IMG/VR virus record: IMGVR_UViG_3300044697_000087
Coordinates: 1 to 39,765 of that record
Origin: a virus
Direction: 5' to 3' (one strand)
DNA: 39,765 nucleotides
The notes below the pieces were generated by a model. It made no database searches, was not told where the DNA came from, and saw only the letters and a program-made list of their open reading frames with translations. Positions within the stretch are counted from its first letter, which is position 1. Each line of letters opens with the position of its first letter. A program made the translations under genes and the position numbers. Positions 15,077 through 28,917 of the stretch are shown here, piece by piece.

Positions 15077-16159
15077 TTAAATTTGGCCAATACTTGGGTA
15101 ACTATAATCGTGAAGAAGAGCGCGCCAGTAAATGACGTCCGCTGCCGCTCCTGCGATTGTAGGCCCAATAATAAAGCCTTGGCTAGTGTTGTTAACAAAT
15201 GCCCCTGCAATTGCCGGTCCGTTGATCGTTGGAATCCCATTGACCAAAGGAGGGTTATAGGCAAATTGGTGAGAACCCGTATTAACGTCCCCAACCGCCA
15301 CCATCTGCGGAGGCGCTAGCCCTGGAAGGGAAGCAACCGCTTGGTTGGTGTTGAAGGCCGTATAGCCCGTTGAGTTGATGTTTACAACAACTGTCGTTGA
15401 GTTCGTTACAGAGGTGACAAATCCGTAGATTGGCGACCCTGGAATCAGAACGTTCGGCAGCGAATTGAGCTGGATAGGACCCCACTGTGGTGGAATTCTA
15501 AAGGCCACTTCGCTCCCTAAACTCAGATTATGCGGCGCAGTCGTCACAACAGTTGTAGAACTGCTGAGAGTCAAAGCACTGATAAACGACACACCTGGCG
15601 CGTACAAGAACGGATAAAGAACTTGACGCACATAGGCACCCGCTGGCGATCCACTCAGAGCAGTGTAATTACTCTGGTTGGTGTTCCAAGGGATGGTGAA
15701 GGTTGTAGTTCCTGTCACAGTCACAACAAAAGGCATGTTACTCAATTGAGGCATCCCAGTTGTAGTCGTCTCGTAGAGACCCGTGAAAATCACGACGTCC
15801 CCAGTCACATAACCGTGAGCAGCCGCAGTAGTCACTACCGCAGGATTCGCCTTTGTGATGGACGCGATCTGTTCGGTCGGGCCATACTGTAAGGATAAAC
15901 CAGCTGCGAAAGTGGAAATACCACCCGTCAGTGTTGTCGCTGTTGTTAGGACCGGCGTAGCGTTAAACGTTTCGTAAACCGCTGCCCCTTGTCCCATGTT
16001 GTTGTCCCAAACAACGAAGGGAATACCTCCGCTAGTTGGCGTTGTCGCTTCCGTGAAGTTTGTAAGCTCCACGTAATCGGGTTGGAACGGCAAATTAACT
16101 GGGGTCATGCCGCCAGTTGAAGATACCACTCCCTTTGCTAATCGCGAATATTCTGCCAT
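15077..16159 (-). CDS. Virion protein with two FCCH-like domains
   Basis: 360 residues. The N-terminus is MAEYSRLAKGVVSSTG then beta-rich. An FCCH-type module is clear at about 97-150 (ITKANPAVVTTAAAHGYVTG then VVIFTGLYE) and a second at about 190-265. The C-terminal quarter resembles the separate 146-residue gene next door. It starts 12 bases after the capsid stop, so it shares the capsid transcript, and is followed by terminators. Abundant expression with the capsid protein suggests a head decoration or head-tail protein; this is inference. Confidence 0.7.
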   Translation of the reverse strand: MAEYSRLAKGVVSSTGGMTPVNLPFQPDYVELTNFTEATTPTSGGIPFVVWDNNMGQGAAVYETFNATPVLTTATTLTGGISTFAAGLSLQYGPTEQIASITKANPAVVTTAAAHGYVTGDVVIFTGLYETTTTGMPQLSNMPFVVTVTGTTTFTIPWNTNQSNYTALSGSPAGAYVRQVLYPFLYAPGVSFISALTLSSSTTVVTTAPHNLSLGSEVAFRIPPQWGPIQLNSLPNVLIPGSPIYGFVTSVTNSTTVVVNINSTGYTAFNTNQAVASLPGLAPPQMVAVGDVNTGSHQFAYNPPLVNGIPTINGPAIAGAFVNNTSQGFIIGPTIAGAAADVIYWRALLHDYSYPSIGQI

Positions 16160-16171
16160 ATAGACCTCCGT

Positions 16172-19100
16172 TTATACTGAGTAACTAGAGGTAGCTCTAG
16201 TACACAGAAGGTTTCTGATAGCAGTATCCTGCGTTATAGCTTGGGCCTGCGCAAATTTCACCGCGAGGGTGGCATTTTGCGCGAGCATGCCCGAATAGTA
16301 TGGGTCCCTGTATATCAGGTTCATCGAATCAATCTATTACTTTATGACCAGAATACCCATTAATAATAGGAATTCTGGCGGGAAAACCACTTCGGATTCT
16401 CCTCTCTATGTTTCCATAGAGATTAGACTATCACATCTCCTTTCGAAGCCTCTGGGGTTAGTCGTTCAGGCTGAATGCAAATTAAAGAAACTATAACTTT
16501 GTTAAAAATCCCTAAAATGAATAAAACTTCTACACATTCTTGCCCCTTATCACCACCGTCTTTACGCTGCGGCTTCTAAGTCAATTACCAAAGGTTTTAC
16601 GTGGGCCATCGTAAATCTTAACCCATCCTGGTTTATATGCGTGATCGCCTGTTTTCCAACGACCGCATTATAGTAAACGTCTCTTCCGTTCTCCGACGCA
16701 CCGAGTGCAATTGGAGCTTCCGAGCTCGTTAGGATTCGGATGTTATACACCGATCCATATTCCGATGGCAACGCACTGGCGTTGGTCGGATAATTCCACT
16801 GGTTAATAAATCCGCTACCAGTGAGAGCATCGAGGTCCGATTGTAGTTCCGTAGAGCTCAGCATAAAATATGCCGAACGTACAGGGCCTGTACCGAATCG
16901 GTCCATCCCTTCGATACCGCTTAAAAACTTGTACAAAATCTGTTACTTTTGTGACCAAAAAAGTGTGTCTATAAGACTATTTATAGACACAATTAGTTTG
17001 GCGAGGTCACCTCTTCGGGTTCCCTTCCGTGATTTTATATATTTTCACGGCTCAGACTATCACATACGTCCTTGCGAACGTCCTCTGGGTTTAGTCGTTC
17101 AGGCTGACATTTCCAATGTGTTGTAGTATATGCAATCAACAACAAAGAACCCTTTAAAGAGGGATTAGTTGGCTTCCATGTGTCAAAATTGTAGCCATCG
17201 TAATACGTTTTTCCAAACATATTGTGTCTACAATCTTTTACCAAATAAATACCTTCTTTATCAGGCCATTTATTTCGAATGCTTATCCAATCCATATCTT
17301 GCCCCTTATTATCGCCATTTACGCAGCGACTTCTAAGTCAATTACCAAAGGTTTTACAACGCCTATAAGTTTAGCGTTATTTGTATCTAGGGTCGTTGCC
17401 ACGAGAGAAAAATCTGATACACCCAAATTAGTCGGATTATCATTATTAGCCCCGCCGCCTGCAAATATTTCAGAAGCAGCAGAAACGATGTAGTCGCGGA
17501 GGATAAGCATTCTGTTACTTTTGTGACCTATTTCTAGGCGGGAATCCCTCTTCGGAGACTCCTCACGACCTTTCTTTCTATCCGTCGTGTTCAGACTTTC
17601 GCATCCCTTGCGGGCCGCCTCATTAAGTCGTTCAGGCTGCTTGTGCTTGCCCCTTGTCACCCTGTCGGGCTTCCAAGTCGATTAGAGTCGGTTTATCGAG
17701 GACATTATCTTCATCCTCGGCTTGGCGCATTGCTACGGCTAACCTTTCGGATACCCAAGCTAACACCATTTACGCCAAGCTAAGAGGGCGTGTTATGCGG
17801 CTAAAGCCGAACCCTCTTGATCTTGCAGTATCACCTGTTCATTGATGACACAGCCGGTTCCAAAGAACTTTCTGTTACTTTTGTGACACAAAAGTTATAG
17901 AAACTATAACGTTTGTGCGGGCCGACCTCTTCGGATCAACCTCTCATAGTCACCTATGAGTTCAGACTATAGCATGCGGTCTCACGCTGCGAGGCCGCCC
18001 TCTTGGTTTAGTCGTTGCAGGCGAATATTCGCTTATATCAATTCCATTAAGAACTTTCATTTCCAGAAACATATCCCAGCGCTTCTTAATAGTTTGATCG
18101 TCAAAAGGAATCCCGATCCTCACCCCTTCTGGTCTTGTACATTTATCCAGAAATTTTAAGGCTAAAATGGCTTGAGGCTTCTTGAGTCTCAAGAATGGCA
18201 AAAGACATTCTAGAACATACTTCACGCCACCTTGATCTCGACAATCCCATCGATGCATTGCCCTATATCCCTTGTAACTTTTCTCGGGATAATATTTTCC
18301 CACTCGAAAGAACTCATAAACGCTTTTTATTGATCGTTCATCATTCATTCCGATTCGCACATAAGGGGCATATCCTGGATCGGTTTGTCTCATTTTTCCT
18401 TGCCATTTTGGCGAGTATCTTGAGTTTATTCCTATTGTACCTTCGCCATCAAAAAGTCCGGCAAAGTAAGCTAATTCTTCCTTCTGATTGTCTTGCATAA
18501 TACACCTCATATGGCACCGTATTATACAAGATGTCCCAGTTATTTACAAGAGGTTTTTCATGGCCCTCTTTTACGAAGCCATCTGGGCATCAATGATGTC
18601 CCTTTGTGGCACCTGGGCCGGTGGGTCGATCCCACTATTACCTAACTGTCGAGTCTGTTACTTTAATGACCTATCAACTTGATTATCATACCGATATTCA
18701 CCTTGATAGGCGAGGAAGCCTATTGCACTTCCCTCACAACGTTACCGTCGTGTTCAGAGCACCGCATCTCCGTTGCCATTCATCAAAATTTAATGACGAT
18801 TGGCTTCCATATTCAGGAATATTATTTAAAACGGAGTCTTCTCGCTTGCTGCGTTCACGGCATACAGAACAAATCCCATTGTGATAGGCACTTTCAGTTC
18901 TCATCTTTTCGCAAGAACTGCAAGTAAAACGACAAATTTCTGATTTATTCATGTATTTCCGCCTTTTTGTCCTTCTATGCCGCCAGGAGTTCAAAGTCTA
19001 TTAGAGAAGATTTTACTACCACACAATCTATGGTAGGTGGGACTAAGGGTCTTGGCCTCATAAATCTGCAAGTTGTTCCGCCGTTCACTGGCATACTGAC

Positions 19101-19211
19101 TTTATCGCAGACCAAAATATAATTCATGGTTGGGGTTGGAACGTACAAAAGTGCAGGCGCTAAGCTCTGCAAAATCATCGGCCCAAGGTTCCCTGTTGTC
19201 GTTATTGACAT
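16172..19211 (-). CDS. Major capsid protein, seven exons (N4-gp56-like)
   Basis: Reconstructed from exons 19211-19030, 18649-18577, 17867-17811, 17766-17713, 17507-17373, 16933-16621 and 16329-16172, joined in frame: 972 bases, 323 residues. Each fragment alone runs into an early stop. Joined, they give the family pattern MSITTTGNLGP, RFMRP, QLGNSG..PP, FFGT..VINEQV, MRQAED, RDYI, GGANNDNPTN, IEG.DRFGTGPVR, INQDGY and IYRDPYYSG...KFA. The joints fall inside conserved blocks without gain or loss relative to the family as I know it. Five interruptions are group I introns and one is a 44-base core-less element. The protein builds the icosahedral head with the scaffold at 21147. Splice sites are predicted from P1/P10 pairing and frame, not measured. 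Confidence 0.88.
16330..16620 (-). ncRNA. Group I intron A in capsid gene (291 nt)
   Basis: The 5' site follows GATGGGT, with P1 UGGGU paired to GCCCA and U-G at the cut. The 3' end is AATAGATTG. The core carries CUGAACGACUAACCC and GUGAUAGUCUAAU (R and S/P7-like elements, about 16420-16475). It contains no ORF. Its first part shares 28 identical bases with intron B (16573-16600 versus 17330-17357). Its 3' part shares 42 identical bases with the portal intron (16341-16382 versus 25932-25973). Splicing makes a Tyr codon from T and AT (INQDG-Y-SMN). Confidence 0.85.
16934..17372 (-). ncRNA. Group I intron B in capsid gene (439 nt)
   Basis: The exon ends AACGCT, pairing with GGCGUU (U-G at the site). 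The 3' end is AACAGATTTTG before TAC. P10 has five of six pairs (CUUAUA with UACAAG). The R/S core lies at about 17052-17105 (TGAACGACTAAACCC and GTGATAGTCTGAG). It contains an 86-codon ORF that overlaps the core. The joint gives NNA-YKF, matching family spacing to the conserved IEG.DRFGT.PVR block. Confidence 0.85.
17035..17295 (-). CDS. Intron B-encoded DUF551-like protein
   Basis: 86 residues starting MDWISIRNKWPDKEGIYLV, with YYDGYNFDTWKP and a late TTHW. The order WISV..LP..G.YLV / YYDG..F / THW is that of the small DUF551-type proteins common in phages. It lies wholly inside intron B. Its last 20 or so codons are the intron's catalytic core sequence, read as PERLNPEDVRKDV. It has no endonuclease motif, so it is not an evident homing enzyme. 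It may be a passenger gene. ATG at 17295 follows AAGGGGCAAGAT. Confidence 0.55.
   Translation of the reverse strand: MDWISIRNKWPDKEGIYLVKDCRHNMFGKTYYDGYNFDTWKPTNPSLKGSLLLIAYTTTHWKCQPERLNPEDVRKDVCDSLSRENI
17508..17712 (-). ncRNA. Group I intron C in capsid gene (205 nt)
   Basis: The exon ends GCCGAGGAT, pairing with GUCCUCG (P1, U-G at the cut). The intron ends AACAGAATG before CTTATCC. P10 is UUAUC with GAUAA, offset by one base. The core CTGAACGACTTAATG and GCGAAAGTCTGAAC lies at about 17590-17640. It has no ORF and is the shortest full intron here. The joint gives MRQAED-LILRDYI. Confidence 0.85.
17767..17810 (-). other. 44-nt core-less group I intron remnant or trans-spliced mini-intron
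   Basis: The insertion between GAG GGT and GTG TTA GCT breaks the capsid frame (TAA follows within seven codons). It begins after U and ends in G like the other introns. P1 is perfect: AAGAGGGU (17818-17811) with GCCCUCUU (17789-17782), U-G at the splice site. P10 is perfect over six pairs: UAACAC (17795-17790) with the 3' exon GUGUUA (17766-17761). The ribozyme core (P3-P8) is absent; only 15 bases follow P1. GCGTAAATGG near its 3' end equals a 10-base piece of intron B. Removal restores exact family spacing (QDQEG-VLAWVSERL). Confidence 0.75.
17868..18576 (-). ncRNA. Group I intron D in capsid gene (709 nt) with LAGLIDADG ORF
   Basis: The exon ends ATGGCT, paired with GGCCAU (P1, U-G). The intron ends AACAGAAAG before TTCTTTGG. 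P10 gives six pairs (AAAGAG with UUCUUU, including a G-U pair). The R/S core lies at about 17961-18022 (AACGACTAAACC and GCTATAGTCTGAAC). It carries a LAGLIDADG endonuclease gene whose 3' end overlaps the core. The joint gives QMA-FFGTG. Confidence 0.85.
17962..18498 (-). CDS. LAGLIDADG homing endonuclease in intron D
   Basis: 178 residues from ATG 18498, four codons after an earlier ATG. This one has GAGGTG at good spacing. Residues 9-20 read LAYFAGLFDGEG, the single LAGLIDADG helix ending in the catalytic acid. Then TIGI and a basic DNA-binding half with YRAMHRWDCRDQGGV and LLPFLRLKKPQA. One motif suggests a homodimer. It should cut intron-less capsid alleles and drive intron homing. The C-terminal tail (TTKPRGRPRSVRP) is read from the intron core. 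It appears intact, with no frameshift. Confidence 0.85.
   Translation of the reverse strand: MQDNQKEELAYFAGLFDGEGTIGINSRYSPKWQGKMRQTDPGYAPYVRIGMNDERSIKSVYEFFRVGKYYPEKSYKGYRAMHRWDCRDQGGVKYVLECLLPFLRLKKPQAILALKFLDKCTRPEGVRIGIPFDDQTIKKRWDMFLEMKVLNGIDISEYSPATTKPRGRPRSVRPHAIV
18650..19029 (-). ncRNA. Group I intron E in capsid gene (380 nt)
   Basis: The exon ends CTACCAT, pairing with GUGGUAG (seven pairs, U-G at the cut). The intron ends AACAGACTCG. P10 ACAGUU with GAUUGU gives six pairs including wobbles. The post-P1 segment TAAAATCTTCTCTAATAGACTT parallels that of introns A and B. The 3' end TTAAAGTAACAG is shared with the others. The R/S elements are less obvious than in A-D (GATGCGGTGCTCTGAAC at about 18750-18768), so the core may be diverged. 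It contains a zinc-ribbon ORF. The joint gives VPPT-I-QLGNSG. Confidence 0.78.
18734..18952 (-). CDS. Intron E-encoded zinc-ribbon protein
   Basis: 72 residues from ATG 18952, with an in-frame ATG 14 codons upstream. Residues 11-31 read C-x2-C ... C-x2-C (CSSCEKMRTES then ICSVCRERS), a zinc-ribbon/treble-clef arrangement like the N-terminal finger of HNH endonucleases such as the one at 20210. No HNH catalytic part follows. The C-terminal third is read from intron structural sequence. It may be a decayed HNH endonuclease or a DNA-binding cofactor. Confidence 0.55.
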   Translation of the reverse strand: MNKSEICRFTCSSCEKMRTESAYHNGICSVCRERSKREDSVLNNIPEYGSQSSLNFDEWQRRCGALNTTVTL

Positions 19212-19379
19212 AACTAACTCATTTTTAGTTATTTACGACATAGAGCATGGCGATCAGTAGACGAACTTAACTACGTCGATTCTCTGCCATACCATTGAAC
19301 TGAGCGACAGTTCTATACGCTGCTCATGACCCTGAGCTAGGGAAAACCCTGATATATCAAATAATTATTTTAACGGCAA
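19212..19379 (-). promoter_or_regulatory. Capsid promoter and structured 5' leader
   Basis: The minus strand has TTGCCG (19379-19374), a 17-base AT spacer TTAAAATAATTATTTGA, and TATATC (19356-19351). Transcription would start near 19344, leaving a leader of about 130 bases. The leader holds AGGG-TTTT-CCCT (19350-19339), a perfect six-pair hairpin GAACTG/CAGTTC (19313-19297), GTAG/CTAC, and AACTAA/TTAGTT immediately before the ATG. Ribosome binding is poor (ATGAG at eight bases). Control by folding is possible. Confidence 0.55.
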
Positions 19380-19466
19380 TTACCCAAAGTTAAACTGCAC
19401 AAAGCGAACGCCTCGCTTTTCCTCAGAAGAAAAGGGAAAGAAGAACACATATTCTTCGTTCCCCAT
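19380..19466 (-). CDS. Possible 28-residue peptide
   Basis: MGNEEYVFFFPFSSEEKRGV with eight more residues fills part of the gap between the methyltransferase and the capsid promoter. The codon pattern looks protein-like and the stop sits at the capsid -35. There is no good ribosome site and no known family, so it may be chance. Confidence 0.25.
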   Translation of the reverse strand: MGNEEYVFFFPFSSEEKRGVRFVQFNFG

Positions 19467-19521
19467 GGCATGGAATTGAGGAGGTAGGATCGCCGAAAGA
19501 GATAGGCAGAGGTCACACACT

Positions 19522-21147
19522 TTACCCAAGCCTCATAGTAGACTTACGCTGCATCATTTTTTCGTAGGCGGCCTTTTTCAGTCGTTCTCTCGCTATTTCC
19601 GCATATTCCGATTCTTTTTCTATTCCAATTGAGCTAAATCCGAGGTTCTGAGCTGCAATGATAGTTGTGCCCGAGCCTGCAAAGGGGTCTAGAAGTAACC
19701 CATTTTCAGGTGGCATCACAAGCCGAATAAGATATTCCATGAGAAGAAGAGGTTTTACTGTAGGATGTTTATTCCCCTTCCCACGCTCTTTAGGAGATGT
19801 CTTTGAACAATAAAAAAAGCGTGAGCCACCTCCTTTAGAAGCTTCACATGTGTAAGTAGGATTGCGATAAGCATATTTTCCATAAATGGAATTTTTTTTA
19901 GGAGTAAAACAAGGAGAAACCTTTCCACTTTTTAATTCCCCAGTTTGTTCATCCAGATTCTTTGCCGATTCTTCGTCTAAGAGAAGTTTGGCAGGCCAGC
20001 GGCCTAAAGGTGATGTTTCATTTCCTCCGTTTCCTGTTGATCCCTGCTTAAAATTAACATTTCCGGTGCACGTTCCAGATCCCTTGGGGTTTTCTCCATT
20101 AGTCGGTATCCTACATCCATCAATGTTAATCCCCGCCTGTCCCCATTTCTCAGCATTCTGTTTGAAAGTGCCGTCGCACTTCTTCATAGCCATTATGATG
20201 GGTTGATAATCAGGGCTGAAATTTCCAGTGTCTTTTGAAATGGTCGGAGACAGACATGACTTCAAGATTTTCAGTTCGATTATCAAGTTTATCGCCGTTT
20301 TTATGGTGAACTTGTTCGCTCCTTGACAGAGACCTGCCAAGATGAGATTCCATAATAATCCGATGTTCAGCTCTGTAGTTACCATTGTGACGGAGATAGC
20401 GATATCCCGTATGCCGGCAAATATAACATCCTCCTCGCCACGAAGGATTCTTTTCTCCTTTGAATTTTCCGCTTTGCCATCGACCTTTGCACTTGTGCGA
20501 GCAAAAAACTCCTTCTCCCGATTTATCTTTTCTGACCATCCTTGCCAAGGGAATATAACATTCTTTATCGCAAGATTTGCATCGAAAAGTTTTTCCAGTT
20601 CGGAGGTTTTGACACTTTCTAGAGCAATATGTTTTAGCTCCCTGCTTAACCACACTTGGGAATCTCTCAAATTCTGATCCGCAGCGTTTACATCTAAGCT
20701 TAATTTTTGCCATTGGCATAATTCCTCTGTTAAATCGAGAAGAATTATACCTAAAATGTCATTAATTTCATAGGGTTTGGAACACATTATTATCGGTTCA
20801 TGCGCCGGTTTGAGAGCGGTTCCATATCCTTCTATGCCAAATTTGTTATGAGATTGGGGGAACCCACTGCCGTATATCCAGGCAATTGTATCCCGAATTT
20901 CCCACCCCGAATCTTCAATTGCCACTGCGAGTCGATGAGAGGTGCGTGTTCCCCCCATTGCAAGAAGATGACCACCTGGCTTGACGATTCTGAGGCACTC
21001 TCCCCAATATTCTTTTCCTGGAACAGCATGATCCCATCCTTTCCCCATAAAGGATAAACCATAAGGAGGATCTGTTACAATTGCCGAAAAATGGCAATCT
21101 TCAAATTTCTTCATCACTTCAAGAGAATCGCCGCACAATATTGTCAT
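19522..21147 (-). CDS. DNA methyltransferase (N4-cytosine/N6-adenine type) with inserted HNH gene
   Basis: 541 residues. TDPPYGL (25-31) is catalytic motif IV and LDPFAGSGTT (486-495) is the AdoMet-binding motif I; this order is the beta class. HPTVKP lies just before motif I. Residues about 122-318 are an insertion that is absent from usual relatives of about 350 residues. It lies where KPAHEPIIM should run into AMKKCDGTF, and PIIM appears on both sides. An HNH gene occupies the insertion in another frame, yet the methyltransferase frame has no stop through it. The start overlaps the scaffold stop by one base. Probably protects phage DNA from host restriction. Confidence 0.85.
   Translation of the reverse strand: MTILCGDSLEVMKKFEDCHFSAIVTDPPYGLSFMGKGWDHAVPGKEYWGECLRIVKPGGHLLAMGGTRTSHRLAVAIEDSGWEIRDTIAWIYGSGFPQSHNKFGIEGYGTALKPAHEPIIMCSKPYEINDILGIILLDLTEELCQWQKLSLDVNAADQNLRDSQVWLSRELKHIALESVKTSELEKLFDANLAIKNVIFPWQGWSEKINREKEFFARTSAKVDGKAENSKEKRILRGEEDVIFAGIRDIAISVTMVTTELNIGLLWNLILAGLCQGANKFTIKTAINLIIELKILKSCLSPTISKDTGNFSPDYQPIIMAMKKCDGTFKQNAEKWGQAGINIDGCRIPTNGENPKGSGTCTGNVNFKQGSTGNGGNETSPLGRWPAKLLLDEESAKNLDEQTGELKSGKVSPCFTPKKNSIYGKYAYRNPTYTCEASKGGGSRFFYCSKTSPKERGKGNKHPTVKPLLLMEYLIRLVMPPENGLLLDPFAGSGTTIIAAQNLGFSSIGIEKESEYAEIARERLKKAAYEKMMQRKSTMRLG
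20210..20719 (-). CDS. HNH homing endonuclease nested in methyltransferase gene
   Basis: 169 residues, out of frame with the surrounding methyltransferase. Two zinc-finger-like pairs come first (CKRCGSEFERF with CSRKC; CKSCDKECYI with CSHKC), then a linker with GYRYL. The HNH core is EHRIIMESHLGR with VHHKNGDKLDNRTENLEVMS, where HH, N and the following Asn/Glu are the metal-binding residues. GAGG precedes the ATG. This is the usual intron- or gene-borne endonuclease build. It likely cuts methyltransferase genes lacking the insert and spreads by repair. Intact. Confidence 0.88.
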   Translation of the reverse strand: MPMAKIKLRCKRCGSEFERFPSVVKQGAKTYCSRKCQNLRTGKTFRCKSCDKECYIPLARMVRKDKSGEGVFCSHKCKGRWQSGKFKGEKNPSWRGGCYICRHTGYRYLRHNGNYRAEHRIIMESHLGRSLSRSEQVHHKNGDKLDNRTENLEVMSVSDHFKRHWKFQP

Positions 21148-21806
21148 TATATTCTCAATGTACTTTTTAGCTGCTGCATCTTCTGGTAGGACGCTTTTTG
21201 TCCAGCTGCACTAAAGTCCCCTTGTGGTTGATAAGGGGGAGCGCCTACGCCGCTCGGCTGATATGCGGCACTCCGTCTGTTTCTATCAATCGTTTCCTGA
21301 ATAGATGTTTTCGGCTCTTCCTTCTTGTGGAGACCCAAAGCCTTGATGTTCTTATAAACGAGCTTTTGGCGCTCAAAATTGTCGGGCATCTCCAGGATCG
21401 ATTCCGCCAATTCCGGATCTTTGTCCGCAAACTTCTGCGCATGACCCATCACTTCGTGAAAGTCGGGATTGCTCTTCAACCAATTCTTCTGGCGCTCTTC
21501 ACTAAGAGCTCTCTGCACAGCCGCCTGGATGTCTGATTGAGTATCCTGACGCGTCTTCTTCTCAAATTTCGCGAACTTCTTCTCGAGAGTCCTGGGGTCA
21601 ACATAAGGCTCATCGCTGGACTCATCTTCTTCCACTGCGCTCCCGCGCTTGAGTTCTTCCATCTCCTGAAGCAGTTGTTCTTTCTCAGCCTTCGCCTGTT
21701 CTGCTAATTGGAGAGCGCGATCACGGTCTGCTTCCAATTTCCTAAAATTGTATTCCTTGTCATTTGGTTTCTGCGCTTCTGACGCTTTTTCTACTTCAAC
21801 AGTCAT
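21147..21806 (-). CDS. Scaffolding protein
   Basis: 219 residues, strongly acidic then basic, helical, with a coiled coil at about 20-60 (DRALQLAEQAKAEKEQLLQE) and a charged linker (AVEEDESSDEP). The C-terminus is Gln/Tyr/Ala-rich and ends in a basic helix (KASYQKMQQLKSTL), which in scaffolds binds the coat protein. It lies between portal and capsid genes, the canonical place. It assists prohead assembly and is then lost or digested. Assignment rests on order and composition; no protease gene was recognised. Confidence 0.75.
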   Translation of the reverse strand: MTVEVEKASEAQKPNDKEYNFRKLEADRDRALQLAEQAKAEKEQLLQEMEELKRGSAVEEDESSDEPYVDPRTLEKKFAKFEKKTRQDTQSDIQAAVQRALSEERQKNWLKSNPDFHEVMGHAQKFADKDPELAESILEMPDNFERQKLVYKNIKALGLHKKEEPKTSIQETIDRNRRSAAYQPSGVGAPPYQPQGDFSAAGQKASYQKMQQLKSTLRI

Positions 21807-21910
21807 CTTTTTTCCCCGTGGGTTCGTCTATAAGCGGGATTTATCAAGGAAAAATTTTAATTGCCAATGTAAAAGAAATATTTTAAAGGAGGGTTTTTAA
21901 GGACTTCCCC
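21807..21910. promoter_or_regulatory. Divergent promoter region with AT-rich motif
   Basis: Minus strand: TTGGCA, then ATTAAAATTTTTCCTTGA, then TAAATC (about 21868-21839), aligning with the capsid promoter TTGCCG-17-TATATC. Plus strand: AAAGGAGGGTTTTT precedes the ATG at 21911. It separates the scaffold from a plus-strand gene. Confidence 0.5.
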
Positions 21911-22468
21911 ATGAAAATAGACCGACTAGAAGCGCACGATCGCTATCAACATTTCACCCGTCAATCCTTTGATATTGGACAGACTTGCCAAAACGTCATC
22001 GACCAACGACCCTTTGGGAACGTCCCCTTCTACATATTTGCTCACAAGCGTGAAATCGGCCTAGATGAACGCCTCTCGATCTTTACACAAGATTTCTTTC
22101 TCCCAGATGATCAGCGTCAATTCAAGACGATGGCTGATGTTCCTACCACGCGCCTGATTTGGCAACCTCGACTTACAAAGCCCGAAGCGCAAACCAATTC
22201 GATGTTATTTAGAGCACATCCCCCCTCTGATGTTGTAAAAGTTATTTGGATGATTCCCGACCCCGAACTCTGGGATCAGTATAAAAAGGGAAATGTCACT
22301 CAGAATCAGACAGTGGTAGAAAGTATCTACAACTTCCAGAACCACAAAAGCAAGCTTGAAGCGCCAGAACCTGGCGACTTATCTGAAAAGAAAATCGACT
22401 CTATTTACCGAGAGATCTCAAGAAGTACGCGACGAAAGAAAGGACCAATAAAAATTCACTCATCCTAA
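21911..22468 (+). CDS. Conserved phage protein of unknown function
   Basis: 185 residues: MKIDRLEAHDRYQHFTRQSF then TTRLIWQPRLTKPEAQTN and SMLFRAHPPSDVVKVIWMIP, and a charged C-terminal helix (SIYREISRSTRRKKG). I recognise this as a protein recurring next to head genes of podovirus-like phages, without a known role. It is encoded against the structural operon, with a strong ribosome site. Its last nine bases overlap the converging gene at 22460. Confidence 0.7.
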   Translation: MKIDRLEAHDRYQHFTRQSFDIGQTCQNVIDQRPFGNVPFYIFAHKREIGLDERLSIFTQDFFLPDDQRQFKTMADVPTTRLIWQPRLTKPEAQTNSMLFRAHPPSDVVKVIWMIPDPELWDQYKKGNVTQNQTVVESIYNFQNHKSKLEAPEPGDLSEKKIDSIYREISRSTRRKKGPIKIHSS

Positions 22469-22663
22469 CTTTCCTGGCACCGAAGCAAGTTTCTTGTCCG
22501 GAACGGGATTTAGGCCCACCATCGTGCCGCGCAAACGGCCCAATTTCTGCTTGTAACCAAGGCCATAATTGAAGCCCGTACCCATCACCGTTGGCGCTGT
22601 GTGCGACTCAACTTTGCTCTTCTTGAGCTTGATCACCTTACCCTGGTAAATCCCGCTGACCAT
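22460..22663 (-). CDS. Small basic phage protein
   Basis: 67 residues, basic and Gly-rich. TGFNYGLGYKQKLGRLRGT parallels GDNYGVGFNQPIGRRGDP in the gene just upstream, so the two look like diverged duplicates. It starts three bases after that gene ends. No catalytic motif. May be a virion-associated or DNA-binding peptide in the portal-scaffold interval. Confidence 0.6.
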   Translation of the reverse strand: MVSGIYQGKVIKLKKSKVESHTAPTVMGTGFNYGLGYKQKLGRLRGTMVGLNPVPDKKLASVPGKLG

Positions 22664-22665
22664 CG

Positions 22666-22944
22666 TTACTCGTCCTTGTCTTCATTGGAACTTCCCCTCA
22701 TATTTAAGGGGGTTCTTCGAATGTTATCCGCTCTCATCGTTTTAGGGTGGCCATCCGGAAGAACAGCCACTTTCTTGAGAGGATCACCTCTCCTACCTAT
22801 AGGCTGATTAAAACCTACCCCGTAGTTGTCCCCAGCAGCAATGCGATTGCGTTCATCGTAATGAGGAGCCTCAAAATTCCAAGGAGACTTCACCTTCTTG
22901 GACTTAATGCGCGGCTCAATTGGATTTGGGAATCCCGTTTCCAT
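22666..22944 (-). CDS. Small basic phage protein, paralogue of neighbour
   Basis: 92 residues, Pro/Arg/Lys/Asn-rich and probably disordered, with a central NYGVGFNQPIGRRG matching the next gene. GGAGGCCCCC precedes the ATG. It is third in a short leftward unit that starts at 23178. Function unknown. Confidence 0.6.
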   Translation of the reverse strand: METGFPNPIEPRIKSKKVKSPWNFEAPHYDERNRIAAGDNYGVGFNQPIGRRGDPLKKVAVLPDGHPKTMRADNIRRTPLNMRGSSNEDKDE

Positions 22945-22953
22945 GGGGGCCTC

Positions 22954-23178
22954 CTAGTTTCGGTAGCCTGGCTTCATAGGACGCTCTTTGATCTTGCGAT
23001 CGCCCTTCATTTGGTCCTCTCGGATCTGTTCAGTAGTATCTGGATAAGCGCTCCCAAGGTACCCCGAGCCTTCTGCTGACATCTCTTCTTTCTCTTTGTG
23101 CGGTCCGTCTGGAAACACGCTATTTCGGCCCCTTTTTCCGGCCCAAAATGAATGATCGTCGATTTTTCTGCCTGACAT
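22954..23178 (-). CDS. Small charged hypothetical protein
   Basis: 74 residues, mostly charged and polar (KIDDHSFWAGKRGRNSVFPD; EQIREDQMKGDRKIKERPMK), probably disordered. GAGAGGACGT precedes the ATG at 23178. An overlapping alternative frame from 23213 lacks a ribosome site and was left out. First gene of the unit leading to the two Gly-rich paralogues. Confidence 0.55.
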   Translation of the reverse strand: MSGRKIDDHSFWAGKRGRNSVFPDGPHKEKEEMSAEGSGYLGSAYPDTTEQIREDQMKGDRKIKERPMKPGYRN

Positions 23179-23293
23179 ACGTCCTCTCCCTTTGGCGGGT
23201 TTGTTTTCCTCATAATATAGTAAAAATAATTTTAACGCTATTTTCTTTGGGGATATTGTCTATAGGCCTAAAATAGGCGAAAAGGAGCACTTT
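23179..23293. promoter_or_regulatory. Divergent promoter region with AT-rich motif and hairpin
   Basis: The minus strand reads ATAGCGTTAAAATTATTTTT then ACTATATTATGAGG; TATATT is a likely -10 with the usual AT spacer. On the plus strand GCCTA-AAA-TAGGC forms a small hairpin just before AAAAGGAGC and the ATG at 23294. Confidence 0.45.
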
Positions 23294-23518
23294 ATGAAGC
23301 ATACATCTCTATTTAGATGGGCGTGGCGCACTGTGCACTTGATCGCCTTTACGTCTCTTCTTCTCTACGTCATTTTAAGCAGTCTAAAGGCGGACGGTTT
23401 CTTCCCATTTCCTATCGAGGGACCCTTAGAAATTGAAGGACCAATCATCGAGAACGTGGAGCGTGTAGACGAAGGCCCCTGGGAGTGTCTTCACTCAGAC
23501 TCTTTCTTAAGATCTTGA
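23294..23518 (+). CDS. Single-span membrane protein
   Basis: 74 residues. A basic start (MKHTSLFRWAWRTV) is followed by a hydrophobic span (HLIAFTSLLLYVILSSL) and then a Pro/Glu-rich tail (FPFPIEGPLEIEGPII). AAAAGGAGC is at ideal distance. The topology (signal-anchor plus acidic proline-rich periplasmic tail) would fit an inner-membrane accessory such as a spanin-like or superinfection protein, but no motif proves it. It overlaps the converging gene by 28 bases. Confidence 0.6.
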   Translation: MKHTSLFRWAWRTVHLIAFTSLLLYVILSSLKADGFFPFPIEGPLEIEGPIIENVERVDEGPWECLHSDSFLRS

Positions 23519-23790
23519 TTCTCTTTGTAGAGATGTTGGTAACACTCAGGACAAAGCTGGACCCAATTTTCTTCTTCAATATCATAAAGCTGTCTCCATT
23601 GATAAGAAACGGACGTCTTTTGGGCACATTTTATGCACTCGTGGCCTTCTCCATCCAACGAAAATGCTTGCTGCCTTAAGGAACTAAGCATCATGATAAT
23701 GCCTACGAATTCTCGACTTTCATAGGAGAATTCGAGTGTTTCTATAATCTCTGGATGAAGAGGCTTCTCACCTTTTTTTTCTGGAGACAT
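23491..23790 (-). CDS. Zinc-binding hypothetical protein
   Basis: 99 residues. C-x2-C (HECIKCAQK) and C-x2-C (QLCPECYQH) are 29 residues apart, as in a treble-clef or HNH-like finger, but no catalytic His pair is seen. The N-terminus EKPLHPEI resembles EKPIHPEV of the preceding small gene. Overlaps that gene by 23 bases and the plus-strand membrane gene by 28. Confidence 0.6.
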   Translation of the reverse strand: MSPEKKGEKPLHPEIIETLEFSYESREFVGIIMMLSSLRQQAFSLDGEGHECIKCAQKTSVSYQWRQLYDIEEENWVQLCPECYQHLYKENQDLKKESE

Positions 23791-23917
23791 TCTTTTTCTT
23801 CCATTCTTGACTTACATTAGGGCCAGAATCTTGAGTATCTTTAACTTCAGGATGAATGGGCTTTTCACACTTTCTCTCCGTAGTGACTCCAGTTTCCGTA
23901 GCTCCTTTCTGACACAT
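23768..23917 (-). CDS. Small charged hypothetical protein
   Basis: 49 residues (MCQKGATETGVTTERKCEKP, then IHPEVKDTQDSGPNVSQEWK and a basic end). It carries the KPIHPEV motif seen as KPLHPEI in the overlapping next gene, which suggests local duplication. It starts 30 bases after the portal stop, behind an AT-rich promoter-like stretch (TAAAAATTTTAATGCGTAAA). Confidence 0.5.
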   Translation of the reverse strand: MCQKGATETGVTTERKCEKPIHPEVKDTQDSGPNVSQEWKKKNVSRKKR

Positions 23918-23946
23918 CCTTAATTTTTACGCATTAAAATTTTTAC

Positions 23947-26207
23947 TTATACGTTAGCCCCTTCTTCCATCTGAGCATGGGCGCCCATCGCGTTCCCCAT
24001 GATCTGAGCCAAGAAGTCGTTGCTCATAGCCGTGCGCTTAGCATCCGCCTTCTCAGCATCTTCTTTCCCTTCCTGCTGATAGTCGAATTGATCGAGCTCC
24101 CGCATCTTGCGCGCTTCCTCTACTTCTCCAATTTTAATGCCCACGTCAACCATTTTCTCCAATGCCTCCATTTTAGCTTTGGTAGACATAGCGCGGTTGT
24201 GGGAGATCTCCGAAAGACGCTCTTCAAAGAGACCAATGTCGGCTTCAGCCCTTCCGTGGCGTTCCCGTGCGGTAGCGATATAAGACGCAGATTTTGCATA
24301 TAACTCCTTCAGCTTCGCTTCTTCTAGAGCGTGCTGAACTTGCGTCGCATGTTCCTGATTAGCGCCTGCTTTTTGTTCTTGTTGTTGGAGGAACTCCATC
24401 GCTTCGGCTTTACCCGTGATATTCATATCCTTGATAATGAAGCTAGGAGGAAACACCTCGCGACCAAACGCTTGGTTGATGTCCAAGAGCTGCTGCGCGT
24501 GTAGATTCTTTTGCGTTGGCGTGAGGTTGCCCTCTTCAACGATCGTCTGGAACTTAGCAAATACCCTTGAATAGAAGTGCTCAGTCGGCTCTTCCCCGAT
24601 GATCATGCGCACTTTGTCCGCATTCCAGTTATTCAGTACAATCTGAAGGCACACATGCCCAAGCTGTTTCAGTGCTAAATCCCACTGATCAAAGTACTTT
24701 TGCAATACGGTCAGATTCGCAGCTTGCTTGATCATCGTCGTAAGGGCGCTAGCGTTCTTGTCGTTCTGTGCAGACCAATTCTCGAGATCCACCCCCGATA
24801 CCCCAAAGATTAGGGTTCTGAGGCGATCAGCCAAAGCAAAATCCGACTCCGGTACTACGTTGGGCTGAATTTTCTCGCAGTCGGTCATCTCATAGCCTTC
24901 GTTGATAATCACGTCCCAACCTTGCCCCGACTTCTTGACGTTATCCTCATTCGCAACAGCGCCAACCTTACGCTTCCATCCAGCGTTAATCGTCGCTTCT
25001 TTCTGATCGTGAGAAATTATGATTTGGCGATTCATCAAGTAATTACAATCACGCATGCAACGCGTTAAGCCTCTTACCCTTAAATCATAATAATTATTAT
25101 GAGGTTCGTAGTTCCAGAGCATCGGAATAAACGGGCAATCTCCCGTCACGCCGAGCGGGTTGTCTCCCTGGAACATCAGCTGATCGTTTAGAACGACTGC
25201 CAACTTCCAACAAGGAACCTCCATCGTGACCGGCTCCATATCGGGGACCTGATAAAGGATCTGTTCCAGATTCGCTTCTCCCCCAGCAAAGTCGAAGAAT
25301 TGGTTCCTAGACCTGCTGTACAGCCTCTTTTTCCTCGTTTTCCACTTGTACCATACGTATGAGAGCACCATTAGGTCGTTCCGGGCCATATTATAATTCT
25401 CTGGGAGGAAGTAAAAGCTGCCATATCTTTGGGGCGTACCGCTCATCGGAGCTATATTTTCGATCTTATCTGGAAATCTACTTTCAGCCTCTTTTTTTGA
25501 TATATACTCCTGACACCAAATGAATTGCGCATCAGCAAAGTTATAATCCCGGGCATATGGATCCACGAGAAACGAGTTGTACTCCCACAATTTAACTTTT
25601 AATTCACCCTGTGCAGGATCGTCGCCAGTGTAGTCTAAATAGGGCTGTAAGAGAACAAGGCCCGTGATGCAGGCTTGCTCAGCCCCTCTTGAGAATTGCT
25701 CGTGGATGCCTTCCTTGTTGGCCACATGCGTCATTAAACGCGTGTATTGGTCCGTCGTCCGAGGGTCTGCGCCATCCGCAGGTATGTAACTGAACGTCTT
25801 ACGATGTTGGCGTTGATAGCCCGTAACCATGTTGATAGGTTGTTGCAGCAGATTAAAATAAAACTGCTGAAACCCGAGAGACGGGGTGTAGTTGAAGTAC
25901 CGATTGACGAACGTTTGTGCAAACTGTTACTTTTATGACCAGAATACCCATTAATAATAGGAATTCTGGCGGGGAAACCTCTTCGGATCTCCCTCCGCAA
26001 TTTCTTGTATCTTTGCGGATCAGACTGTCGCTTGCCTTTCGGCCCCTCTCGCTCAGTCGTTCAGCGTGCTTTCGCTTCGCCCTTGTTAGCCCATCGGCCG
26101 TCCAAGAAATCAGAGAAGGTTTATAATGCTGACCCTGCTCTTAAGCCAGCATAAAAAAGTGTGTCGATGTTGGATTGGTTCCATCTAGCCTGTTCTATCT
26201 CAGGCAT
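23947..26207 (-). CDS. Portal protein, two exons (P22-like)
   Basis: Exon 1 is 26207-26144 (from ATG, MPEIEQARWNQSNIDTLFYA) and exon 2 is 25919-23947; joined 2037 bases, 678 residues. The joint makes a Ser codon and gives FYAG-S-QTF, in register with FYAGDQ..W of P22-type portals. Downstream PINMVTGYQRQHRK, GADPRTTDQYT, LWEYNSFLVDPYARD and the helical barrel-like C-terminus (EEARKMRELDQFDY) fit the family. It forms the dodecameric ring at one capsid vertex through which DNA is packaged and ejected. Without splicing exon 1 ends within a few codons. Confidence 0.88.
25920..26143 (-). ncRNA. Group I intron F in portal gene (224 nt)
   Basis: The exon ends ATGCTGGCT and pairs over nine positions with GGUCAGCAU (P1, U-G at the cut). 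The intron ends AAAAGTAACAGTTTG. The core has GAACGACTGAGCG and GCGACAGTCTGATC at about 26020-26065 (R/S-like). No ORF. 42 bases near the 3' end are identical to capsid intron A. No clear P10 is visible. It closely resembles the capsid introns, so the same element has entered two essential genes. Confidence 0.83.
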
Positions 26208-26337
26208 TTACACTTATTTTATCAGCCCATAGATCAGGCTGAAATTTCGAGTAGAGGTTGTCTAACCACTGTCGAACGTTCACTTGATTCGGTTCTAATG
26301 CATTGTTCCAAGGGGGATAATAGAATGTGATAAATAC
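26200..26337 (-). pseudogene. Start-less coding-like fragment upstream of portal
   Basis: A frame of about 46 codons reads EVFITFYYPPWNNALEPNQV, then RQWLDNLYSKFQPDLWADKI, ending in TGA that overlaps the portal ATG (AATGCCTGA). It looks like real protein but has no ATG, GTG or TTG at its beginning; the first in-frame option is GTG, giving 27 residues. It could be a decayed gene, a short GTG-started gene coupled to portal, or chance. Confidence 0.35.
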
Positions 26338-26348
26338 CTCGGGAGTAG

Positions 26349-26400
26349 AGTTTTAATCTAATCGGGTATTTATAAAATAATTTTTATTACTTCAAGGTGT
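26349..26400 (-). promoter_or_regulatory. Portal promoter
   Basis: Minus strand TTGAAG, 17-base spacer TAATAAAAATTATTTTA, then TAAATA (about 26395-26367). Closely similar to the sequence at 8105-8135. AATACC and GGTATT arms follow, a possible operator or leader hairpin. Also within this gap (26338-26466) is a T-rich stretch after the preceding minus-strand gene stop. Confidence 0.55.
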
Positions 26401-26466
26401 GCTTTTGGTTGAGCCTTCTTCAAAAAAAATAAGTACAAGCCTCTTTTCGAGTGGCCGGAATTCTAT

Positions 26467-26706
26467 TCACTCTTTGGGCTCAACCTGTCCCCACACGTGA
26501 TCTAAGTGGAGATGCATTTCTTCAATAGTGTATTTCAGCTTTTTCCCCGATAGACACGCAATCCCTAAACAGGAAAAAAGAGCCGCCATGCGTGAAACCT
26601 TCCTCTTTACCGTACACTTGCCGATTTCTTCCACTAAAGTGCGCACATTTTCGGCTAACTCCTCTGCTTGTTCGCGATTGAGTTTCCTTCGTTCATACTT
26701 TTCCAT
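26467..26706 (-). CDS. Small helical protein, paralogue family member
   Basis: 79 residues from ATG 26706, chosen because it overlaps the upstream stop; an earlier in-frame ATG is at 26742. All helical: ERRKLNREQAEELAENVRTL, then a hydrophobic helix (MAALFSCLGIACLSG) and YTIEEMHLHLDHVW. The pattern hydrophobic helix, (K/R)(E/K)(E/D), then ...W is shared with the genes at 26693, 26908, 27946, 28666 and 33594. Function unknown. Confidence 0.6.
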   Translation of the reverse strand: MEKYERRKLNREQAEELAENVRTLVEEIGKCTVKRKVSRMAALFSCLGIACLSGKKLKYTIEEMHLHLDHVWGQVEPKE

Positions 26707-26911
26707 TTTGTCCTTCCCCCTCCATCTGATCCCACGCCTCAAATGCTTGGCTCAGGAACTCTTTCTTCCGTAGTCCCATTTTAGAGGCGCAGTTCATTGC
26801 CAACGTAAGAGACAGGGCCATTCCTTGCCTAAAAGAGAGCCTCTCTCCTTCAAAAAAGGCAACAAGAGACTCGTAAATCGTTTCTAATTTTTCCGTTTCT
26901 TGCTCAGTCAT
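26693..26911 (-). CDS. Small helical protein, paralogue family member
   Basis: 72 residues from ATG 26911, which overlaps the previous stop (ATGA). MTEQETEKLETIYESLVAFF, then MALSLTLAMNCASKMGLRKK and EFLSQAFEAWDQME. It aligns best with the second half of the next upstream gene (TIYEKLIRFFAKEG..., LKKEDFIETATIAWERV). Part of a translationally coupled string. Confidence 0.6.
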   Translation of the reverse strand: MTEQETEKLETIYESLVAFFEGERLSFRQGMALSLTLAMNCASKMGLRKKEFLSQAFEAWDQMEGEGQNGKV

Positions 26912-27333
26912 AGGGGTCCCTTTTCCACTCGTTCCCAAGCGATCGTAGCTGTTTCGATAAAGTCCTCCTTCTTTAGATCCATGTCAATCGCCCCTTGAGC
27001 CGCCATAGTGAGAGTCACTGCTGTTATTTCCTTTACGGAGGTTCCCTCTTTCGCAAAAAATCGGATCAATTTCTCGTAAATCTCGGTCATTTTTTCTATG
27101 TTGTCCATCCCCCTCCTATGATCCCATCCATCGTCAATAAGTAAATGGATGTCTTCTCGAGATAAATCCGTGATTTTGGCACATCTAATTAGCACTCCAA
27201 TACACCCTAGGATCTTGGTTATCACCCTGGGATTTTTTTGACGGACAAATTCGTCAATATCTTCATGAAAAGAAGCTATCTCTTGAATCAAATCTTCTCT
27301 TTCTTTTTCTGTGAGCTCTTCTAATAATTTCAT
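26908..27333 (-). CDS. Helical protein with two family repeats
   Basis: 141 residues from ATG 27333, which overlaps the RNA-ligase stop. It contains two copies of the small-protein pattern: ILGCIGVLIRCAKITDLSRE with DIHLLIDDGWD, and TLTMAAQGAIDMDLKKED with FIETATIAWERV. It looks like a fusion or an internal duplication within the tandem paralogue cluster. No known domain. Confidence 0.6.
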   Translation of the reverse strand: MKLLEELTEKEREDLIQEIASFHEDIDEFVRQKNPRVITKILGCIGVLIRCAKITDLSREDIHLLIDDGWDHRRGMDNIEKMTEIYEKLIRFFAKEGTSVKEITAVTLTMAAQGAIDMDLKKEDFIETATIAWERVEKGPL

Positions 27334-27968
27334 GCAAAATCCTTGCACTTCAGCTTCCACATGATCGGATTTCCGTTTCTAAAGAGCATGAGGGGTTCGG
27401 ATCTGGCAACAATACCCTCCATCGTCTGCGACTCTGTGCTGCATTGACTAGGAGGATCTTGCGTAACGAACTCCACAATCTGCGATTCGCTCATGAATCC
27501 TAGGTCCGGCACCATAGGAACGCCTAATGACTCCGCAACCCCTTTCACGTCCTCTTGTTGAAGCCACCACTCACCCACACGTACATCAAATAGTATGAAG
27601 CCCGCTTCTTTGCGGTACTTACCTCCACAGGCCTGGATTTTGTGGCCGTACCCTTCGCCATAAAGGATGATGCGGGATTCCTTGTTTCCCTTAAAAACGC
27701 CCAGAAGTTTATCTGGAGGAAATAGTTCTTCTAGAGTTCTCAGCAAATGAGGCGGAATTTGAGCGTCATTCGTGCGTCCTGCAAACAGAACATCTTTCCC
27801 ACACCCAGGATCGCGGATTATCACCCTAATGTTGGTCCCATCCACCTTTTCCGATACGCGCCACCATCCAACGCTAGCGAACTCGGGCTGCGCATAATCG
27901 CCCATAATGAGCTCGCGTTTTGCGTCTATGCGTCGTTTCCACAGACTATGAATTTTTGGATATTCCAT
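27330..27968 (-). CDS. RNA ligase, Rnl2-like
   Basis: 212 residues. Nucleotidyltransferase motifs in order: motif I KVDGTN with the AMP-accepting Lys41, motif III ILYGEGYG (101-108), motif IIIa GFILFDV (123-129), motif IV MEGIVAR (183-189) and motif V WKLKCKDF (204-211). The N-terminus YPKIHSLWKRR is usual for small phage Rnl2-type ligases. It seals nicked RNA, as in repair of tRNAs cut by host anticodon nucleases. GGGAGG precedes the ATG. It is embedded among the helical paralogues. No kinase/phosphatase partner is seen. Confidence 0.85.
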   Translation of the reverse strand: MEYPKIHSLWKRRIDAKRELIMGDYAQPEFASVGWWRVSEKVDGTNIRVIIRDPGCGKDVLFAGRTNDAQIPPHLLRTLEELFPPDKLLGVFKGNKESRIILYGEGYGHKIQACGGKYRKEAGFILFDVRVGEWWLQQEDVKGVAESLGVPMVPDLGFMSESQIVEFVTQDPPSQCSTESQTMEGIVARSEPLMLFRNGNPIMWKLKCKDFA

Positions 27969-28167
27969 TCGTTTCCTCCCGAAGTTTTTCTTCTTCCATC
28001 ATGCTATCCCACACTTCCTCCACGCATTCGATGAACTCCCTCTTTGTAACGTTTCCTTTGATACATCGAAACACAACAAGCGATATCGAGGCCTCATTAA
28101 ACTCTTCGGGGCTGTGCTTGTAGTCCATAGATAGAAAAAATAATTTTTTGGCTACATCCTGGTTCAT
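27946..28167 (-). CDS. Small helical protein, paralogue family member
   Basis: 73 residues from ATG 28167 with GAGGGGTG upstream; a longer frame begins at 28200. The pattern FNEASISLVVFRCIKGNVTK then REFIECVEEVWDSM matches the family helix-KREF-W signature. Its end overlaps the RNA-ligase start by 23 bases. Confidence 0.6.
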   Translation of the reverse strand: MNQDVAKKLFFLSMDYKHSPEEFNEASISLVVFRCIKGNVTKREFIECVEEVWDSMMEEEKLREETNGISKNS

Positions 28168-28201
28168 TTCACCCCTCAAAAAAAATCTACGCAAAAGCAC
28201 A

Positions 28202-28459
28202 TTATAACATCCTTCTCCATAGACCCTTTAATCCCCTTTTAGAATAAACTATCGGGTGTTTCAATCTGAAGAAAGTTCTAGACCATCGAGTTCCTCCGAT
28301 TAGCCACCACTTATCAAGACTAACCCGTCTTTGTGCGAACTTGACACCAAGTGTCGCGGGCAAACACTGTTGCTTGCAATCTGCGGGAGGACGATACACA
28401 AAGCCACATCTCTCGTTCTTTTCGTCGAGAATGAATGTCACTCCGTTTTCTTCATTCAT
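28202..28459 (-). CDS. Hypothetical protein
   Basis: 85 residues: an N-terminal part with three Cys (NERCGFVYRPPADCKQQC) and a basic, Trp-rich C-terminus (VSLDKWWLIGGTRWSRTFFR; GLKGLWRRM). No family recognised. The start overlaps the stop of the 48-residue gene (ATGAATGA). It may bind nucleic acid, judging by charge. Confidence 0.5.
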   Translation of the reverse strand: MNEENGVTFILDEKNERCGFVYRPPADCKQQCLPATLGVKFAQRRVSLDKWWLIGGTRWSRTFFRLKHPIVYSKRGLKGLWRRML

Positions 28460-28598
28460 TTAAAAGCTCCTCATCGCTCTTTCCCTTGGGAGCCAAAGAC
28501 ACGTAAAGAGTCTTAGATGGATTGTTAATTGTAAGAGGAAGATCCTCTATATCAATCTCGATATATAACTCAGTGTCTGTTTCTTGAACTTTTCTCAT
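28452..28598 (-). CDS. Small acidic hypothetical protein
   Basis: 48 residues: MRKVQETDTELYIEIDIEDL, then PSKTLYVSLAPKGKSDEELL. Beta-leaning and acidic. ATG at 28598 directly follows the stop of the preceding reading frame, with GAGG at good distance. It overlaps the next start. Function unknown. Confidence 0.5.
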   Translation of the reverse strand: MRKVQETDTELYIEIDIEDLPLTINNPSKTLYVSLAPKGKSDEELLNE

Positions 28599-28697
28599 TT
28601 ATTCCTCGTATGGGTCGTATTGCACGTTCGTAGTCGCGGCCCCCTCTCGGATCGCCTTCTCATTATTATTTATCCGATCCTTCTTTCTTCTCTTCAA
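28599..28697 (-). CDS. Possible 32-residue protein with TTG start
   Basis: A TTG start gives KRRKKDRINNNEKAIREGAA then TTNVQYDPYEE, ending right against the next ATG. The C-terminal half looks protein-like and fills an otherwise empty gap. It overlaps the previous gene by 32 bases. The weak start keeps this uncertain. Confidence 0.35.
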   Translation of the reverse strand: MKRRKKDRINNNEKAIREGAATTNVQYDPYEE

Positions 28698-28917
28698 TAC
28701 ATGATCGCCAACATGCGCGGAAGATCATGATAACATCCTCCTCCGACATTGGAATGGTTTTGCTTATCATAATCAATAACTTAATAGTTGCTTCGAATCC
28801 TAATATACAGGAAGCATCTAAATCACCTAACAATTGCCACATCTTTTGTATTAGTATAGCTGATTGGGGCAACCCCCCTTTCTTTAAATCCTCTTCCATC
28901 CTAAATTTTTCCCCCAA
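28666..28917 (-). CDS. Small helical protein, paralogue family member
   Basis: 83 residues: FRMEEDLKKGGLPQSAILIQ, then GFEATIKLLIMISKTIPMSE and EDVIMIFRACWRSCIEEKKE. The second half fits the family pattern (hydrophobic helix, SEED, then ..W.S..EE). Its start lies within the last codons of the terminase gene (34-base overlap), so it is coupled to it. Confidence 0.6.
   Translation of the reverse strand: MGEKFRMEEDLKKGGLPQSAILIQKMWQLLGDLDASCILGFEATIKLLIMISKTIPMSEEDVIMIFRACWRSCIEEKKEGSDK

Follow-up and report, generated by a model that had tools for sequence, protein, structure and literature searches.

The methyltransferase gene of the virus record IMGVR_UViG_3300044697_000087 (the window, meaning the whole stretch of 39,765 bases that was analysed) is interrupted by an insert which is very probably a ShiLan-type homing element, that is, an HNH homing-endonuclease gene which has invaded a conserved methylase motif without an intron or an intein. 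The ‘ShiLan domain’ has been described as an out-of-frame HNH in mycobacteriophage methylases with the host frame left open (Arsenault, Gosselin & Gogarten 2025, Genes 16:178, PMC11855218); the element was first noted in 2023 (PMC9957025) and the term is used in a 2025 genome announcement (PMC12613952). Its site carries an 11-residue copy of downstream residues, and it proved to be neither intein nor intron in those authors’ tests (PMC11855218). The hidden HNH phenomenon was already published in 2025 (PMC11855218), so it is not novel as such, and what is added here relative to the cited ShiLan papers are expression signals, host-frame selection on the left-edge copy (the mimic) and a wide phage range.

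The host gene encodes an N4/N6 DNA methyltransferase of 541 amino acids with the insert counted (19522-21147, minus strand), as identified from the ORF list, Pfam (N6_N4_Mtase, E=3.7e-35), phrog_67 (2.1e-64) and an alignment with 50 relatives, and its catalytic motifs are intact (DPPY at residues 26-29 and FAGSGT at residues 489-494). Wholly inside it, starting at offset 428 and hence in the +2 frame, is an HNH endonuclease ORF of 169 amino acids (20210-20719, minus strand). Both ORFs had been reported in the initial annotation, which had the 169-codon HNH gene entirely inside a 541-codon methylase, and both were confirmed, as were the lack of any stop in the methylase frame across the insert and the presence of the string FTIKTAINLIIELKILKSCL, to which the HNH core corresponds in that frame; with the exception of the residue limits of the insert, its sequence details were correct wherever they were checked. 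The methylase gene belongs to the structural module (15077-30146), with a tail-protein gene on one side (15077-16159), the portal gene on the other (23947-25830) and the large terminase gene beyond the portal (28884-30146), and is not among the replication-side genes at 35-38 kb. A second homing-type gene of the window (17962-18510, minus strand), LAGLIDADG-like (AYFAGLFDGEGTIGI), stands outside any methylase; its Pfam LAGLIDADG-like match is below the cut-off (E 0.008) and it matches phrog_5046 at 1.3e-16.

Eighty related methylases were fetched, most of which lack an insert at the window’s site, the insert-free relatives of the window’s methylase being up to about 65% identical to it. The spacing from GYG/GWG to AGINID is 33 residues in insert-free relatives compared to 231 in the window (230 and 229 in relatives L002 and L003), and a MAFFT alignment opened the gap at the identical point in all relatives, giving an inserted element of 594 nt, or 198 codons, which is open in the methylase frame (20209-20802, minus strand) and makes up methylase residues 116-313; an insert had been placed at residues 122-318 before, and so its existence was borne out but its limits had to be moved. 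The N-terminal (left) part of the methylase, residues 1-115, ends ...GYGTALKPA (20803-21147, minus strand; alignment with insert-free relatives), and the C-terminal (right) part, residues 314-541 and the stop, starts YQPIIMAMKKCDGTFKQNAEKWGQAGINIDGCRI (19522-20208, minus strand; alignments), so that the insert is flanked by GYGTALKPA and YQPIIMAMKK (general form (Y)xPIIMAMK). The latter is the native motif copy (20179-20208, minus strand), and the left-edge mimic, HEPIIMCSKP (20773-20802, minus strand), is a copy of this downstream motif, defined by alignment of the elements at the window’s site (site A), nearly all 20 of which have a comparable 10-codon left-edge copy. The PIIM remarked upon earlier at both edges (HEPIIM and YQPIIM) is indeed there and extends beyond four letters, as it lies within a genuine imperfect repeat of about 10 codons, inside which the exact edges of the insert are ambiguous. 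In another uncultivated phage (L005) the methylase is uninterrupted at the window’s site, reading GYGTALKPAYEPIIMAMKKCDGTFKQNAEKWGQAGINIDGCRI, and has a different nested HNH farther on, just before HPTVKP.

The HNH ORF was assigned from Pfam HNH_3 (E=2.4e-12), phrog_20891 (4.1e-20) and a structure model (pLDDT 84.5), and its product has two N-terminal Cys-rich zinc-ribbon-like units followed by a C-terminal HNH (EHR...VHHKNGDKLDNRTENLE), with catalytic and Cys residues that are invariant across 32 sequences. In the PDB the model was structurally closest to the homing endonuclease I-HmuI (at a probability of 0.97, although E was 0.11), and a sequence search there with the HNH profile yielded a weak zinc-finger match only. 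I-HmuI, for which the same role is expected, is located in a self-splicing intron whereas the window’s insert has no detectable intron. Inteins resemble the insert in being in frame in a conserved motif and in homing, but the insert has no splicing domain and its endonuclease is in another frame. Much closer is ShiLan itself, which shares with the window the methylase family, the site after GTALKP[A/S] (before [Y/F]EPI), a third-frame HNH, a host frame without a stop, a left-edge copy of downstream residues, an HNH ORF that ends within the final bases of the insert and the lack of intron or intein signals. The two HNHs are only about 45% identical, however, the window’s start is ATG compared to GTG in ShiLan and has a TATAAT box, and the carrier is an uncultivated phage rather than a mycobacteriophage. 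The ShiLan HNH core has zinc fingers flanking it on both sides (PMC11855218), whereas in the alignment the window’s Cys-rich units are only N-terminal of the core and the C-terminal unit of L006-L010 is absent; we take this missing unit as a domain difference within the kind and not one of layout. On sequence comparison the window’s element is a distant new member of the published ShiLan-type hidden HNH elements. Pacc40 gp60 (PMC11855218) also has an out-of-frame HNH-like ORF in a phage methylase, but its methylase family and site are different and by its description it is set apart.

The open host frame of the window is not due to chance. Recoding the HNH protein with the codon usage of the window’s methylase produced a mean of 4.5 stops in the methylase frame (P(open)=0.003), while shuffling of the gene’s own synonymous codons gave P=0.29, a conservative control because the window’s gene already under-uses stop-making codons. 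Re-encoding the HNH of each of 24 nested cases with the codon usage of its host, in all of which (24/24) the methylase frame is open, gave 2-8 stops in the host frame (P(open) from <0.001 to 0.08). By comparison, the corresponding frame of 72 non-nested HNH relatives averages 9.25 stops and is open in only one, but as the nested set was chosen for open frames this is a contrast and not an independent test, and the re-encoding test is the fairer of the two. The single open frame among the non-nested relatives (L037, with an overlapping ORF of 231 amino acids which is not a methylase) is probably chance. Stops are more numerous in the alternative frame of HNH genes (17 versus 0 in the window and a mean of 13.7 versus 9.3 in non-nested relatives), and the shared +2 offset might have been forced by this; a silent replacement is always available for a T-ending codon, and three nested HNHs (in L018, L057 and L070) lie at +1, and so this was dropped as a full explanation. 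Shared ancestry and homing at one site are a simpler cause of the common offset at site A.

Selection was compared in both frames, as the initial annotation had envisaged, using codon-position differences in the HNH frame within the insert and in the methylase frame in the flanks and mimic. Inside the overlap the pattern indicates selection on the HNH frame: between the window and L002 the differences at HNH codon positions one, two and three were 0.21, 0.17 and 0.41, HNH third positions were the most divergent in nearly all pairs, and HNH identity exceeded host-frame identity throughout, remaining near 0.5 where the latter was down to about 0.2-0.3. The host-frame differences were 0.37/0.31/0.63 in the left flank, 0.41/0.37/0.65 in the right flank and 0.44/0.35/0.68 in the left-edge mimic. 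That host third positions vary most in all three suggests that the methylase is under protein-level selection on either side of the insert and that the mimic is kept as host protein, which argues that the through-translated methylase is used. Selection on the mimic, the open host frame and a moderate host-frame identity in some pairs would also be expected if the host-frame product of the insert were a selected domain (for extra DNA recognition or regulation) and the HNH frame secondary or a relic, but we consider this improbable, as the fastest sites are HNH third positions, changes at which are always non-synonymous in the host frame, the HNH catalytic and Cys residues are those that are invariant, and it is the host-frame identity which falls away. 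Nor was the earlier suggestion of a folded surface domain upheld, since AlphaFold2 confidence is low there and the host-frame residues of the overlap drift faster than the HNH residues. In the AlphaFold2 model both terminal parts of the methylase core were well predicted, the native motif copy (313-321) forming a strand, and the insert came out as low-confidence helices, the mimic (116-125) also being of low confidence; we take the low confidence of the insert as neither proof nor exclusion of its being tolerated.

The insert had been proposed to be either translated or removed, and translation with the host is favoured, removal being disfavoured by the lack of an intron family and of intein motifs and by the open frames. 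Group I introns commonly carry HNH genes, and a self-splicing intron which is cut from the mRNA together with an HNH ORF, its open frame being incidental, would fit that pattern. Similarity between the 5' end of the intron and the 3' exon is frequent in group I introns (PMC11855218) and is also seen at the left edge of the window’s insert. Against this, Rfam gave no intron for the window region even at E 10 (only an unrelated sRNA) and none at gathering cut-offs for 20 nested loci, and only 84 of the 594 nt lie outside the HNH ORF (510 nt), so that a ribozyme core would not fit without overlapping the ORF. An intron would also leave unexplained the open host frame in 24/24 nested cases compared to 1/72 non-nested ones, and the mimic evolves under host codon rules, and so we regard an intron as unlikely, to much the same degree as a selected host-frame domain. 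An unusual intein, removed post-translationally, is less likely still: the insert is in frame with the host, of exact codon length and at a conserved-motif site, and intein-like inserts are present in the related methylases L018 and L057 (CLSEDTEILT...VTGN followed by S), but it is without splicing blocks or the terminal Asn plus Cys/Ser/Thr (it begins with H and the next residue after it is Y), it has no Pfam intein domain, its host-frame residues are poorly conserved across the HNH overlap, and PMC11855218 was likewise negative.

With a homing element that is translated through as the preferred reading, the HNH would need to be expressed from within the methylase gene, and candidate signals for this are present inside the insert. 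A promoter-like site, ATGAAA-16-TATAAT (20744-20771, minus strand; 10/12 matches), which is the only one on the minus strand in 1.7 kb of the window, lies 24 nt before the HNH ORF, and a Shine-Dalgarno-like AGAGGA (20723-20728, minus strand) is separated by 3 nt from the first ATG (20719) and by 9 nt from the second (20713), with which the HNH start of relatives L002 and L003 aligns. In the window alone these signals are modest (promoter against dinucleotide shuffles, p 0.04; Shine-Dalgarno energy -5.8, rank p 0.13). L005 has TTGACT-17-TATGAT, the sole such site in 1.6 kb, directly before its nested HNH, and TTGACA-17-TATAAT, TTGACA-17-TATATT and TTGCCA-17-TACAAT were found in L086, L015 and L085 respectively. 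Scored against the sigma-70 consensus, which serves here as a proxy, the promoter stood out from other stretches of its own host gene at p<0.05 in 16/24 cases. The combined Fisher values (promoter against dinucleotide shuffles, 1.8e-8 for site A and 5e-6 for one element per cluster; Shine-Dalgarno enrichment at site A, 3e-9) overstate the independence of related elements. A good promoter was absent in the site-A elements L016, L053, L088 and L032 and in all four site-B elements tested, three of which were also without a Shine-Dalgarno sequence, and the promoter scores of mycobacteriophage members were weak under shuffles; ShiLan-type members have GGAGGACGAGTG, with a good Shine-Dalgarno sequence (GGAGG four bases before GTG). 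Among eight related leaders of equal length the pairwise difference was 0.17 in the -10 box and 0.24 in the Shine-Dalgarno sequence compared to 0.56-0.61 in the remainder, and the three host codon positions were about equal (0.48, 0.50 and 0.53), so that these boxes are conserved without a codon-position pattern, suggesting that the constraint on the leader acts at the level of the DNA and not of the protein. No ribosome-binding site was reported in PMC11855218, where leaderless translation was proposed and the HNH translation route left as an open question, to which a Shine-Dalgarno sequence of its own and, in many relatives, a promoter close to the consensus are a candidate answer. Production of the HNH by ribosomal frameshifting from the methylase instead of internal initiation is formally possible given the shifted-frame overlap, but the window’s HNH frame is open for only 39 nt before its start, confining any shift to that stretch, and the Shine-Dalgarno and promoter signals favour internal starts, so this route was rejected as very unlikely.

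Searching IMG/VR and GTDB contigs with an HNH profile, together with a frame scan and the phage records, yielded 24 distinct methylases with a nested +2 HNH and an open host frame (the window and 23 others), mostly from uncultivated phages, and the suggestion in the initial annotation of the same dual-coded insertion in long methylases of other organisms thus holds for other phages. The set includes close kin of Cylindrospermopsis phage Cr-LKS3 and Escherichia phage BUCT618, and one bacterial MAG contig (L093). At least three insertion sites are used, namely A (the window’s; 19/24), B (just after GFPKS; L011, L020, L028 and L030) and C (before HPTVKP; L005), and every convincing nested host found was a methylase, although the search was seeded with methylase-borne HNHs and this is no proof of restriction. 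A tblastn search with the window’s HNH gave matches inside the methylase genes of Mantra, OwlsT2W, Bipolar, MISSy, ShiLan and others, with frames and site as in the window. MISSy (occupied) and Bruin (empty), of one phage genus, are nearly identical over the 5' part of the gene, where every one of the six initial alignment blocks of 60 columns has 55-60 identities, after which there is a clean insertion; E. coli genomes and phages held no near-identical occupied/empty pair for phage BUCT618, for whose nested HNH (L011) a set of 50,697 phage records contained no relative at E<=1e-5. The window’s HNH has its nearest counterpart in L002 (78%) and its methylase flanks have theirs in L003 (69% v 56%), and across 20 elements HNH and methylase identities were weakly correlated (Spearman 0.25, a small sample). 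This discordance fits horizontal transfer of the element, as PMC11855218 argues for ShiLan, and together with nearest relatives that are insert-free it makes for a scattered distribution.

The element is an exact number of codons long and avoids stops in the host frame, so that the methylase can be translated straight through it with a loop of ~198 residues, and at its start it repeats the host residues found just downstream of the insertion. We propose that the HNH is made separately, from an internal start with a ribosome-binding sequence and, in many members, a sigma-70-type promoter of its own, and would cut insert-free methylase genes at the conserved motif, repair then copying the element across, while the looped methylase would stay functional enough for there to be little cost to the phage. 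More tentatively, and at slightly less than an even chance, this could be a third way of invading genes, which needs no splicing, unlike introns and inteins, and is common across phage methylases, and in which a complete small gene (promoter, ribosome site and HNH ORF) doubles as an open stretch of the host frame and the copy of the displaced motif keeps the host enzyme working, related loci even seeming to hide an HNH out of frame in a true intein. The range of a recently described and poorly understood mobile element is extended from mycobacteriophages to phages with other hosts, many of them uncultivated, with a testable answer offered to the question on HNH translation raised in the 2025 paper (PMC11855218), and the element is a clean natural case of overlapping genes, with selection acting on the protein in one frame and mainly on the absence of stops in the other.

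Several related loci have other arrangements. The methylases L018:498-2417 and L057:603-4058 have an intein-like insert (CLSEDTEILT...VTGN followed by SGFPKS) with an out-of-frame HNH inside it (+1, Pfam HNH_3; L018:949-2007 and L057:1324-2061), and seem to contain an intein whose endonuclease is encoded in another frame, the Pfam intein match of L018 being weak (E 0.0017, below the cut-off). In the methylase L070:108-2768 there are two nested HNH ORFs at different sites and offsets, 854-1336 (+2) and 1834-2538 (+1), the latter just before the DPFAGSGTT motif. The nested HNHs L005:3966-4379 and L011:1390-1992 are of families other than that of the window and lie at other methylase sites, again with the host frame open, and an abiF RNA match (Rfam RF03085) was found near a nested methylase at L063:4817-4853.
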